Positions 48,289-54,555 of a DNA stretch of 64,000 nucleotides are shown in pieces. The notes under the pieces were generated by a model. The model was not told the origin of the DNA. It saw nothing but the letters and a program-made list of their open reading frames with translations, and did not search any database. Source of the stretch: Acidobacteriota bacterium (GTDB lineage Bacteria; Acidobacteriota; Terriglobia; Terriglobales; Acidobacteriaceae). The position numbers and the translations under genes were made by a program. How positions within the stretch are numbered: the stretch's first letter is position 1; each line of letters opens with the position of its first letter. The stretch covers positions 62,001 through 126,000 of the forward strand of contig JAJZVX010000007.1 in assembly GCA_021846985.1 (NCBI GenBank), in the 5' to 3' direction.

Positions 48289-49464
48289 CAGGGCCGACGC
48301 ATCTTAATTGCTCTATGCGACAGGACCAGTCAGGGGGTTGGATGGGCCTATGTGCAGTCCATTGCGGTATTTTTCCCGTCTGACGGATCCGCGCGTGGAG
48401 CGGACGCGCGAAGATGTTCTGAAAGAGATCCTGCTGATCGCTATCGCGGCGGTATTGAGCGGGGCCGAGAGTTGGAACGAGATCGCGGACTACGGCGAGT
48501 CGAAGCAGGAGTGGCTCAAGATCTTCCTTCATCTTCCCTGCGGTATTCCCTCGCACGACACCTTCAACCGGGTCTTTGCCGCGCTCGATCCGGCAGAGTT
48601 TGAGCAGAGTTTTGCCGATTGGGTCACCTCCATCGCCCGGCTGACGGCGGGTGAGGTTGTGGCCACCGATGGCAAGACCCTGTGCGGCACACGTCAGGCA
48701 GGCAAAAAGCAGCTTGTTCAAATGGTTCCAGCCTGGTCCGGGGCCAACAACCTGGTGCTGGGTCAACGCAAGGTCGAAGACAAGTCGCATGAAATCAACG
48801 CCATCCCCGATCTGATCGAGGCTCTGGAGTTGAGCTGAACTGTGGTGACCATCGACGCCATGGGGTGCCAAAAATCGATTGCCGGAAAGATCGTCGAAGA
48901 AGGCCAACTACATTCTGGCGGTCAAGGAAAACCAGCCCTTGCGGCTTGAGGACGTAAAGGATTCCTTCAAGATGCTCCCCGCCGAATCGGTCGATGAGCA
49001 AGTCGATTGTGGCACGGGCGGGTGGAAATGCGGGCGCGGCTCGGTGGTGGGCGATCGGACGCTGCTCGATCAATCCGGCGATTGGGAGGGGCTACGCGCG
49101 CGGGTGCGCATCGAGGCCGAACGCTATCACAAGGCCACCGGCAAAACCGAACGCGAAATCCGTTACTACATCAACGGCCTCGCACCCCAGGCCGCGCCGA
49201 TCAACACGCTGGTGCGCCAGCACTGGGGAATTGGAAACAAGCTGCACTGGGTGCTGGATGTGGCCTTTGGGTGAGGATCTGAGCCGTAAACGCGCCGGAA
49301 ACGCCGCTCAGAACTTCTCTCTGCTCAACCGCATCGCCCTAAATATGCCGAAGCGCGAGACCTCCCTCAGGCGTGGAATCAAGGGAAAACGACTCAAAGC
49401 CGCATGGGACCATCCCTACCTGTTCCGCCTGCTCGGTATCGAGAATTAAAACGCGTCGGCCCTG
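48289..49464 (+). mobile_element. ISAs1-family-like insertion sequence, decayed
   Basis: Terminal inverted repeats CAGGGCCGACGCATCTTAATT (48289-48309) and the reverse complement of CAGGGCCGACGCGTTTTAATT (49444-49464), 19/21 identical, flank a disrupted transposase. Confidence 0.85.
48350..49449 (+). pseudogene. ISAs1-like transposase, interrupted by a stop and two frameshifts
   Basis: PLRYFSRLTDPRVERTREDVLKEILLIAIAAVLSGAESWNEIADYGE... stop TGA at 48836-48838; frame continues TVVTIDAMGCQKSIAGKIVEE then shifts near 48905 to ANYILAVKENQPL..., then again near 49270 (DVAFG/EDLSRKRAGNAAQNFSLLNRIALN). Confidence 0.85.
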
Positions 49465-50893: not shown

Positions 50894-52522
50894 GTGCGGC
50901 CAGGTGACGCGGCGGCAAACGCCGCGGCCTCGGCGGCTCAAGACCCCGCGACGCGCGGGACGAGGAGAACCGCACTGGTCCGCCAACTGCTTGCCCGCAA
51001 GTCGATCGACAAGCTGATCCGCGAGTCGGAGGAGCCGGAGCACTCTCTCAAGAAATCGCTCGACCCCTGGTCGCTCACGGCGCTGGGCATAGGCGCCGTG
51101 ATCGGCTCGGGCATCTTTACGGTGATCGGGACGGCAATGGCGGGCCAGAAGTTTGACGTGCCCTCCATCAGCAATACGCCACTGCTGCACTATCTACTCT
51201 TTCATTCCGCGCTGGACGGCCGCCCTGGCGCCGGACCGGCGCTCGCCCTCTCGCTGGTGCTGGTGGCCATTGTCTGCGTCTTTACCGGGCTTTGCTACGC
51301 CGAGCTGGCCTCGATGATCCCCATCGCCGGGTCCGCCTACACCTATACCTACGCGACATTGGGTGAACTGGTGGCGTGGGTCATCGGCTGGGACCTGATC
51401 CTGGAGTACGCCTTCAGCAACATGAGCGTGAGCGTGGGGTTTGCCGCGCACATCGTGGACCTTCTGGACTGGTTCGGCCTGCACCCGCCGGCGCGATGGA
51501 TCTCGCCGGCCTATCTGCCTACGGGCTTGCAGGATCTTGCCGGGCAAAACATCTACGCGCCCGGTTGGCACTTCGGCTTCAATATCCCGGCCTTCCTGGT
51601 GGTCATGCTGCTGACGGTGATCCTGGTGCGGGGCATCCGCGAGTCGGCCCGGACCAACAACATCATGGTGCTGGTGAAGATGGCCGCGATCCTGGTCTTC
51701 ATCTTCGCGGCGGCCAGCTACATCAAACCCCACTACTGGCATCCCTTCATGCCCAATGGATGGACCGGCGTGCTCACCGGCGGCTCCATCATCTTCTTTA
51801 CCTACATCGGCTTCGATTCGGTCTCCACGGCGGCCGAAGAGTGTAGAAATCCTCAGCGCGATCTGCCCTTCGGGATTCTGGCCACGCTGGTCGCCTGCAC
51901 GCTGCTCTATGGCGGCGTGGCCATTGTCCTCAGCGGCATCGTGCCGTGGCAAAGCGTGATGGGCGACGCCGCGCCCGTGGTCAACGCCCTGCGCCGCCTC
52001 TCCTTCGGCCCGGCCGGCGCCCACCTGCACTGGATCAGGCTCTTTGTCCTCATCGGCGCCCTGATGGGCATGATCTCCTCGATCCTCGTCTTCCAGCTCG
52101 GCCAGGCGCGCGTGTGGTTTGCCATGTCGCGCGACGGCTTGCTGCCCCCCGTCTTCGGCAAGATTCATCCGCGCTTCCGCACCCCCGCGGTGGCCACCTG
52201 GGTGGCCGGCTTCCTGGTCGGCATTCCCGCCGGCGTGCTCGACATCGGCACGGTCTCGAACCTGTCGAACATCGGCACCCTCTTTGCCTTCGTGCTGGTC
52301 TCCATCGCGGTGCTGATCCTGCGCTATCGCGAGCCGGAGCGCCATCGCGCCTTCCGCGCCCCGCTGGGGCCGGTGTTTCCGCTGCTGAGCATTGTCTTCT
52401 GTATCGTTCTCATGATGGGCCTGGAAGTGCTCACCTGGATGGCCTTTTTCCTCTGGCTCGCCACCGGCCTGCTCGTCTACTTCTTCTATTCGCGCCACCG
52501 GTCGGAGTTCGCGGGGTTGTAG
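50894..52522 (+). CDS. APC-family (cationic) amino acid permease
   Basis: LKKSLDPWSLTALGIGAVIGSGIFTVIGTA, IPIAGSAYTYTYATLGELVAWVIGWDLILEYA, FFTYIGFDSVSTAAEECRNPQRDLP. N-terminal start uncertain. Confidence 0.88.
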   Translation: MRPGDAAANAAASAAQDPATRGTRRTALVRQLLARKSIDKLIRESEEPEHSLKKSLDPWSLTALGIGAVIGSGIFTVIGTAMAGQKFDVPSISNTPLLHYLLFHSALDGRPGAGPALALSLVLVAIVCVFTGLCYAELASMIPIAGSAYTYTYATLGELVAWVIGWDLILEYAFSNMSVSVGFAAHIVDLLDWFGLHPPARWISPAYLPTGLQDLAGQNIYAPGWHFGFNIPAFLVVMLLTVILVRGIRESARTNNIMVLVKMAAILVFIFAAASYIKPHYWHPFMPNGWTGVLTGGSIIFFTYIGFDSVSTAAEECRNPQRDLPFGILATLVACTLLYGGVAIVLSGIVPWQSVMGDAAPVVNALRRLSFGPAGAHLHWIRLFVLIGALMGMISSILVFQLGQARVWFAMSRDGLLPPVFGKIHPRFRTPAVATWVAGFLVGIPAGVLDIGTVSNLSNIGTLFAFVLVSIAVLILRYREPERHRAFRAPLGPVFPLLSIVFCIVLMMGLEVLTWMAFFLWLATGLLVYFFYSRHRSEFAGL

Positions 52523-52607
52523 GGCTGTGGCTCGAGCGCGCAAGTCTTTCAGATCTGCCGACGATCCGTGCGAGACAGTGCGTAGATCGACTTATAATTG
52601 GACGGCA

Positions 52608-53315
52608 ATGACTGAGGAACTTGTGCCTGGCGAAGTAATCTCACACCACGACATGTGCTCTGCTGTCGGTGTGAGCTTGCAAAAGGGAATGAACTTCAGA
52701 CTCCGTGGGGGCCCCATCCTTCTCATGAGCAGAAGACGCGGAGCGCCCTACGATGACCACGTAGACGAGTCAGGCGAAACGTTGATCTACGAAGGACACG
52801 ATTGCTCTAGAACAGCAGATTGCCCTCTTCCCAAGCGGATCGATCAACCCGAACGATCCCCGAAGGGTACTCTCACAGAGAACGGTCTCTTCGCGGCGGC
52901 TGCTAGAGATCACACGAAAGATGGGCTCCCTCCGGCCAAGGTCAGGGTCTTCGAAAAGATCAGAGCCGGGATCTGGGTCTACAACGGGATATTCGACTTG
53001 GTCGATTCCTGGATCGATGACTCGTCTGGTCGTCGTGTGTTTAAGTTCAAGCTCAAGCTGGTCCACGCAATCTGTCCCTTCTCGACGGTGCAATCTTCTG
53101 CACAAGAGCAAGAAGATGATCGCATCATCCCATCATGGGTCAAACAGGCCGTATGGAAACGAGACAAAGGGAAGTGTCGGGAATGCGGCGCTAGCACTAG
53201 CCTTCATTTTGACCACATCATTCCGTTCTCGAAGGGTGGCTCATCAAAGGATCCGAAAAACATCCAGATCCTTTGTGGACGGCATAATCTCGCAAAACAC
53301 AACAAAATCGAATAA
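52608..53315 (+). CDS. SRA/YDG-like domain + HNH endonuclease, putative modification-dependent (type IV) restriction enzyme
   Basis: SRRRGAPYDDHVDESGETLIYEGHD and NGLFAAAARDHTKDGLPPAKVRVFEK...WVYNGIFDLVDSWID...RVFKFKLK resemble SRA; C-terminal VWKRDKGKCRECGASTSLHFDHIIPFSKGGSSKDPKNIQILCGRHNLAKHNKIE is a canonical HNH. Confidence 0.75.
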   Translation: MTEELVPGEVISHHDMCSAVGVSLQKGMNFRLRGGPILLMSRRRGAPYDDHVDESGETLIYEGHDCSRTADCPLPKRIDQPERSPKGTLTENGLFAAAARDHTKDGLPPAKVRVFEKIRAGIWVYNGIFDLVDSWIDDSSGRRVFKFKLKLVHAICPFSTVQSSAQEQEDDRIIPSWVKQAVWKRDKGKCRECGASTSLHFDHIIPFSKGGSSKDPKNIQILCGRHNLAKHNKIE

Positions 53316-53538
53316 CCGCGATCAGAACTTCGCCGCATTTTGCCTCACGTCGTGCGCCGTACACCTGTCGGGTCAACCCTGCCCGGGTAGCAGACACTGC
53401 GCGCCACGGCGGGCCATATCGCGATCGAAGGTGCCCGGGACGCCGCCGGCGGCCTGGGCAACAGCGAGAAGCCCAGCGTGGGCCCAGACCTTGGGCGACA
53501 CGAGATGGCCGGCGGCTATCGCCCGGTAGACTGAAAGA

Positions 53539-54555
53539 GTGACTGCCATTGAGGATTTCATCCGCCGCCTGCCCAAGGCGGAACTGCATCTGCACCTGGA
53601 AGGAACCGTCCTGCCCTCCACGCTGGTGGAGCTGAGCGCGCGCCACCGCGGGCGGCCGATGGCGCTCGACGAGGCTGAAGCCCTCTACCGCTTCACCGAT
53701 TTCACCGGGTTCCTGAATGCCTTCAAGGCGGTCACGGAGTTGCTCGCCGATCCTGGCGACTACGAGCTGGCCGCCTGGCGCATGATGGAGCGGCTGGCGG
53801 AGCAGGGCGTGGTGCACGCAGAGGTCTTCGTCTCGGTGGGCGTCATCTATCTCTGGCGCAAACACAAAGAAGGTTGCTTTGAGCCCATCTTCGCGGCTCT
53901 CGAACGGGCGCGGCAGCGGGCCGAGGACGAGCTCGGCCTCTCCGTTTATTGGATCTTCGACGCTGTGCGGCACTTTACGGTCGAGGAGGCGGCGCGGGTC
54001 TTTCGCAAGGCAGCGGAGCTGAAAGCGGCGCACCCGTCGGTCATTGGCATCGGCCTCGGCGGCGACGAGCGGCGCACCGGCTCGGAGCCGTTCCGGACAT
54101 TATTCGCCGAGGCGCGCGCCGCCGGGCTGCGCCTCACCAACCACGCTGGCGAAACCACCGGCCCCGAGGCCATCCGCGAGGCGCTGCGCATCGGCTCGGA
54201 GCGCATCGGGCACGCGCTCTCGGCCCAGCGGGACTTCTACCTGATCGAAGAGATCAAGGAACGCCGCACTCCGCTGGAACTGAACATGACCTCGAATGTG
54301 CGCACCGGCCTCTGCCGCTCCTATGCGGAGCATCCCCTCCGGCGGTACTACGATGCGGGACTGCTGGTGACACTCAATTCCGACGATCCGGCCTTCTTCG
54401 CGTCGGATGTGGAGAACGAGTACCGGCTGGCCCACCGCAACCACGGATTCACGCCAGAGGAGTTACGCGATCTGGCGCGCAACTCGATGCGAGCAAGTTT
54501 CCTTCCTGAAGCCAAAAAGACTGCGTGGATTTCCCAAATCGACTCTTTGCAGTAA
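53539..54555 (+). CDS. add: Adenosine deaminase family protein
   Basis: LPKAELHLHLEGTVLPSTLVELSARH, GIGLGGDERRTGSEPFRTLFAEARAAGLRLTNHAGET, RIGHALSAQ, LNSDDPAFFASDVENEY. Confidence 0.85.
   Translation: MTAIEDFIRRLPKAELHLHLEGTVLPSTLVELSARHRGRPMALDEAEALYRFTDFTGFLNAFKAVTELLADPGDYELAAWRMMERLAEQGVVHAEVFVSVGVIYLWRKHKEGCFEPIFAALERARQRAEDELGLSVYWIFDAVRHFTVEEAARVFRKAAELKAAHPSVIGIGLGGDERRTGSEPFRTLFAEARAAGLRLTNHAGETTGPEAIREALRIGSERIGHALSAQRDFYLIEEIKERRTPLELNMTSNVRTGLCRSYAEHPLRRYYDAGLLVTLNSDDPAFFASDVENEYRLAHRNHGFTPEELRDLARNSMRASFLPEAKKTAWISQIDSLQ

Follow-up and report, generated by a model that had tools for sequence, protein, structure and literature searches.

Flanked by genes for an amino-acid permease (50894-52522; PF13520) on one side and for an adenosine deaminase (53539-54555; PF00962) on the other, an AT-rich gene for a 235-residue protein lies in the window, that is, the whole analysed stretch of 64,000 nucleotides, and the question raised by this locus is what such a protein does and which DNA it might attack. 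An earlier note, made from the sequence alone, had taken it for a type IV, modification-dependent restriction enzyme. An SRA domain is combined here with an HNH nuclease and a cognate methylase is missing, and we also regard dependence on modified DNA as the best reading: the product is very probably a solitary, NTP-independent, 5mC/5hmC-dependent type IV restriction endonuclease working like the SRA-HNH enzymes TagI and ScoA3IV, with its activity and specificity predicted from the features collected in Table 1.

Table 1. Position of the SRA-HNH gene, its upstream element and its domains in the window
Feature	Position	Strand	Basis
SRA-HNH endonuclease gene, 235 aa + stop	52608..53315	+	ORF and translation; about 40 full-length homologues, 37-65% identity
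TATAAT box, 9 nt 5' of the start codon	52593..52598	+	sequence and upstream comparison; tentative
SRA (SAD/YDG) domain, residues ~8-151; pocket Q25 (thumb), Y48, D50, Y61	52629..53060	+	Pfam, profile match, AF2 model with Foldseek
Linker, variable, low-confidence, residues ~152-172	53061..53123	+	pLDDT <50 at 156-169; poorly conserved columns
HNH-superfamily (beta-beta-alpha-Me) nuclease, H-N-N: D202-H203, N218, N227; zinc ligands C190, C193, C223, H226	53124..53312	+	Pfam, alignment A1, model

The reading frame is uninterrupted and contains the motifs quoted in the earlier note; since the homologues can be aligned from about residue 5 through the C-terminus, the gene is considered to be real and conserved. 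The TATAAT box is kept in two congeners, G043 and G053 (TATAATTGAG..GC(A)ATG). The promoter scan revealed no consensus -35 element for it, and if the box is a -10 element the transcript might, tentatively, be nearly leaderless. About 3 kb upstream of the gene a DDE transposase, broken over several frames, was recognized (48308-49450, plus strand; DDE_Tnp_1_assoc, 5e-32).

Pfam identified only HNH and SRA domains in the 235 residues, and no NTPase or helicase. The SAD_SRA match covers residues 47-150 with an E-value of 6e-5, which is under the gathering score of the family; 36 of the 38 members of the homologue alignment A1 are matched by the same profile, the best with 2.6e-9. A1 also served as input to the AlphaFold2 (AF2) model, a monomer with a mean pLDDT of 85.6, and a Foldseek search with this model placed SRA-DNA complexes of SUVH5 at the top (E ~1e-7), followed by ScoMcrA (E 9e-7, about 300 columns), MspJI (E 7e-5) and UHRF1/2. 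Profile comparison matched the SRA domain to the SUVH5 SRA structure 3q0b (E 7e-5). On the basis of the Pfam matches within the family and of the Foldseek results the N-terminal fold is an SRA; the AlphaFold check that had been proposed thus favoured the original suggestion, and the assignment as an SRA reader fused to an HNH-superfamily nuclease stands.

In the profile alignment Q25, Y48, D50 and Y61 are paired with residues 31, 55, 57 and 67 of the 3q0b chain, which correspond to Q392, Y416, D418 and Y428 of SUVH5 with a numbering offset of 361 deduced from the same four positions. In SUVH5 Gln392 occupies the position vacated by the flipped base, which is itself contacted by stacking of Tyr416 and Tyr428, and Asp418 forms hydrogen bonds with the Watson-Crick edge of both 5mC and 5hmC (PMC4740795); the respective set in TagI is Gln35, Tyr55, Asp58 and Tyr67 (PMC6212794). 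Y61 is invariant among the 38 sequences of A1, and Q25, Y48 and D50 are each conserved in at least 90% of them. The two aromatics, the carboxylate and the gap-filling thumb residue which define a flipped-base pocket are all present by alignment, and judged by these residues the pocket is a conventional one, of the 5mC/5hmC-reader type.

The closeness to SUVH5 gives room to a variant of this picture, which we consider unlikely but still worth keeping in view: among the SRA nucleases of bacteria and archaea the proteins might form a separate, unstudied branch with an H-N-N site, whose SRA, nearer to plant SUVH than to TagI, might resemble SUVH5 also in turning out the cytosines of both strands at fully modified sites, and this in various sequence contexts. 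In that case the protein would be a candidate for a living relative of those bacterial proteins from which the eukaryotic SRA readers came. A literature search found no bench biochemistry on this SRA-HNH branch.

The earlier note regarded the SRA as divergent and its target as perhaps a non-standard modification; that the same architecture reads another modification, e.g. glucosyl-5hmC, N6-methyladenine or 7-deazaguanine, is in our opinion improbable. It is true that glucosylated 5hmC is accepted by the SRA of PvuRts1I, and an SRA-containing enzyme of an archaeal virus is reported to be m6A-dependent (PMC10101028); this enzyme, however, is described there with an extra winged-helix domain which is absent from the 235-aa protein. 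A broken homologue in the congener G002 adjoins queE/queC-like genes (named by eye), yet these are housekeeping queuosine genes, and among about 40 loci compared no recurrent modification gene adjoins the homologues. In the pocket the aspartate selects the Watson-Crick edge of cytosine and purines would clash (PMC6212794), and since the Tyr/Asp/Tyr pocket with its thumb Gln matches the set of 5mC/5hmC readers, SUVH5 and TagI included, a non-standard target is without sequence support.

The nuclease domain was recognized by Pfam HNH PF01844 at residues 190-233 (5e-9, over the cut-off) and in all 38 members of A1. The strand-strand-helix arrangement could be located in the AF2 model at residues 199-203, 219-223 and 224-233; C190, C193, D202, H203, N218, C223, N227 and K230 are invariant in A1, and H226 is nearly so (at least 90%). 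The domain had been called a canonical HNH, which needs correction: the third active-site position is Asn (N227) instead of the metal-binding His in 38 of the 38 aligned members, and by its aligned residues the nuclease is an H-N-N variant lacking the His-Asn-His triad. Some other beta-beta-alpha-Me nucleases, e.g. T4 endonuclease VII, likewise have Asn here. The nuclease residues of TagI are Cys210, Cys213, His229, Asn245, Cys250, Asp253 and His254; an acidic metal ligand preceding the general-base His occurs in many HNH endonucleases and is absent from TagI (TagI paper).

As a 5mC/5hmC-dependent restriction enzyme, the protein would scan DNA via the minor groove with its SRA domain, and 5mC or 5hmC would be flipped into the Y48/D50/Y61 pocket while Q25 plugs the gap. 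The zinc-stabilised beta-beta-alpha-metal nuclease would cut nearby, H203 serving as general base and the metal being bound by D202 and N227; the active form is probably a dimer, and the distance between the cut and the modified base is probably not strictly fixed. The presumed target is incoming phage or other foreign DNA with C5-modified cytosine, and the host would be spared since it makes no C5-methylcytosine. Among the observations that run counter to this model, the link to TagI by sequence is weak (profile E 0.29, in the HNH domain only), and the third catalytic residue is Asn instead of His.

Full-length homologues are scattered over about 15 bacterial and archaeal phyla, and their hosts include Chloroflexota, Gemmatimonadota, Thermodesulfobacteriota, Verrucomicrobiota, Bacteroidota, Cyanobacteriota, Planctomycetota, candidate phyla and a woesearchaeote. 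The gene stands alone in these genomes: comparison of about 40 loci revealed no recurrent partner or operon gene across the phyla, and since no partner is conserved the SRA-HNH protein probably acts by itself. A phage or plasmid reservoir could not be detected, as matches in plasmid and phage records all stayed under 80% coverage of the protein and IMG/VR gave a good match only at one contig edge. Genes of the lptE/holA type were seen as neighbours of SRA-HNH genes at L048, L049, L051 and L052, in four other genera of the family and on two separate branches of the tree; this looks like a second preferred site.

The absence of a cognate methylase, observed in the neighbourhood by the earlier note, extends to the entire genome of the window, where no C5-methyltransferase (PF00145) was matched. 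A conflict between amino-methyltransferases and a 5mC reader is not to be expected. At the original threshold PF00145 was present in 10 of the 42 carriers of the SRA-HNH gene and in 151 of the 396 genomes of the window's phylum (p 0.09); at E < 1e-30, a threshold chosen post hoc and applied to groups that differ in taxonomy, the numbers were 5 of 42 and 110 of 396 (Fisher p 0.03). Three of the ten matches in carriers have a PPCQPF(C)R-type motif and are taken by us as DNMT2-like. The exclusion is not strict, since C5-methyltransferases with intact motifs occur alongside a few homologues, e.g. in G646, G649 and G099. The depletion fits a 5mC-dependent nuclease and is compatible with it, although it is no proof.

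These data also bear on another possible role, in which the protein would be no restriction enzyme but an epigenetic or repair factor with the modified DNA of its own host as substrate. Among solved structures its SRA is indeed nearest to eukaryotic epigenetic readers; nevertheless the host has no C5-methyltransferase match, the gene is missing from most congeners and decayed in some of them, and the nuclease residues are invariant, so this role is very improbable.

With respect to its origin, the gene has a GC content of 52.3% compared with 63.8% for the window, which bears out the remark of the earlier note on its composition; it is the lowest-GC 708-bp stretch of the window (50-bp steps), and its GC3 is 0.59 against 0.75-0.87 in the other genes. 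Low GC had been read as a sign of recent arrival, and this did not hold: the homologous gene is AT-richer than its own flanks in 39 of 40 hosts, with a mean difference of 11 points, and several congeners carry an orthologue at this very locus. Low GC thus characterizes the gene family as such, and the arrival cannot be dated from it.

Among 80 congeneric genomes, the window's own included, seven carry the gene, all of them in a low-GC form and three in a broken one; orthologues fixed at the locus with normal composition, which had been named as evidence against a restriction enzyme of foreign origin, were thus not encountered. Intact copies were found in the window's genome and in G043, G053 and G005, only the nuclease half in G042 and G046, and a disrupted copy in G002. 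The permease/adenosine-deaminase junction holds an orthologue in at least five of the 79 congeners (three intact, two truncated; in G053 the contig ends just past the gene and the permease side alone is visible), and the G002 copy lies elsewhere. The intact congener copies form one clade in the tree (support 100/98). Twelve congener intervals have an empty site with a permease-deaminase gap of 13-66 bp, and other intervals hold unrelated genes. Recent horizontal acquisition was rejected, since the synteny of about 58 congener intervals and the tree favour an older arrival followed by losses. The most parsimonious view is that the gene was acquired once, at an older date, and then lost repeatedly: the SRA-HNH gene is horizontally mobile and not recently arrived.

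At L117 and L118 (G042 and G046, respectively) the SRA half is deleted and an open, nuclease-only frame of 101-105 aa remains. The two genomes are 97% identical at the locus and are therefore counted as a single deletion event; both encode C5-methyltransferases, and this one deletion may represent the loss of a self-toxic reader.

The junction itself (52523-53538; loci L117-L173) varies in length within the genus (13 bp to 5.3 kb) and contains, depending on the species, VapBC, thymidine-kinase-like, thioredoxin-like, regulator or SRA-HNH genes, most of them named by eye. In the window the C-terminal remnant of a VapC-like PIN-domain toxin (53376-53531, minus strand; 56% identity over 52 residues, E 1.6e-12) sits between the SRA-HNH gene and the adenosine deaminase, and in five congeners (L128, L136, L143, L166 and L168) a complete VapBC pair is found at this junction.

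A selfish element, namely a mobile or homing endonuclease of the HNH type whose additional domain binds DNA and which is not kept for defence, would agree with the frequency of HNH domains among phage proteins and with an AT-rich, patchy gene at a variable intergenic site, but it is the least credible of the alternatives, because the insertion is intergenic and involves no intron, intein or conserved coding site, the contexts of the homologues differ without a common target neighbourhood, the base-flipping residues of the SRA are strongly conserved, and the gene is nearly absent from phages and plasmids. Defence genes, to which that of a 5mC/5hmC-dependent restriction enzyme would belong, typically show such a patchy distribution, decay in relatives and a low GC, the last seen here in 39 of 40 hosts.

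It should be emphasized that a dedicated family for the SRA-HNH protein is absent from the libraries searched: NCBIfam matched the nuclease only weakly, as 'IscB', far under the cut-off of that family, and a PADLOC model of its own is lacking. The family will therefore probably be overlooked or given a wrong name in genome annotation and in surveys of defence genes. The SRA-HNH type of enzyme is already known, and it is the sequence-divergent member with an H-N-N site which is new. The SRA-HNH type IV enzymes are hereby extended to a compact 235-aa branch in many phyla, candidate phyla included. If active, the protein would provide a small nuclease dependent on 5mC/5hmC, and it would help to indicate which modified phages these hosts encounter.

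The closest known systems are TagI, ScoA3IV (Sco5333) and TbiR51I, which likewise consist of an N-terminal SRA and a C-terminal HNH nuclease without an NTPase, and share with the present protein the thumb Gln, the Tyr/Asp/Tyr flipped-base pocket and a CxxC...Cxx[C/D/H] zinc site; the host of TagI is also reported to lack a C5-methyltransferase, as here. The differences are nevertheless considerable: about 235 residues stand against 287 in the TagI chain (6ghc), and an H-N-N active site against H-N-H; D202 directly precedes H203, whereas TagI has Ala228 at this place and uses Asp258 instead; and the pocket Tyr and Asp are separated by one residue (Tyr48, Asp50), as in SUVH5, and by two in TagI (Tyr55, Asp58). 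ScoMcrA (SBD-SRA-HNH) has the same order of SRA and HNH, but it also has a sulfur-binding domain which is absent from the far shorter protein described here. MspJI and PvuRts1I read modified cytosine with an SRA as well, but their nuclease is of the PD-(D/E)XK type and not HNH/beta-beta-alpha-Me. The nearest solved SRA domains, by both profile and fold, are those of plant SUVH5 and SUVH9, with which the Y-x-D spacing of the pocket is held in common, although these proteins are histone methyltransferases or their relatives and have no nuclease.
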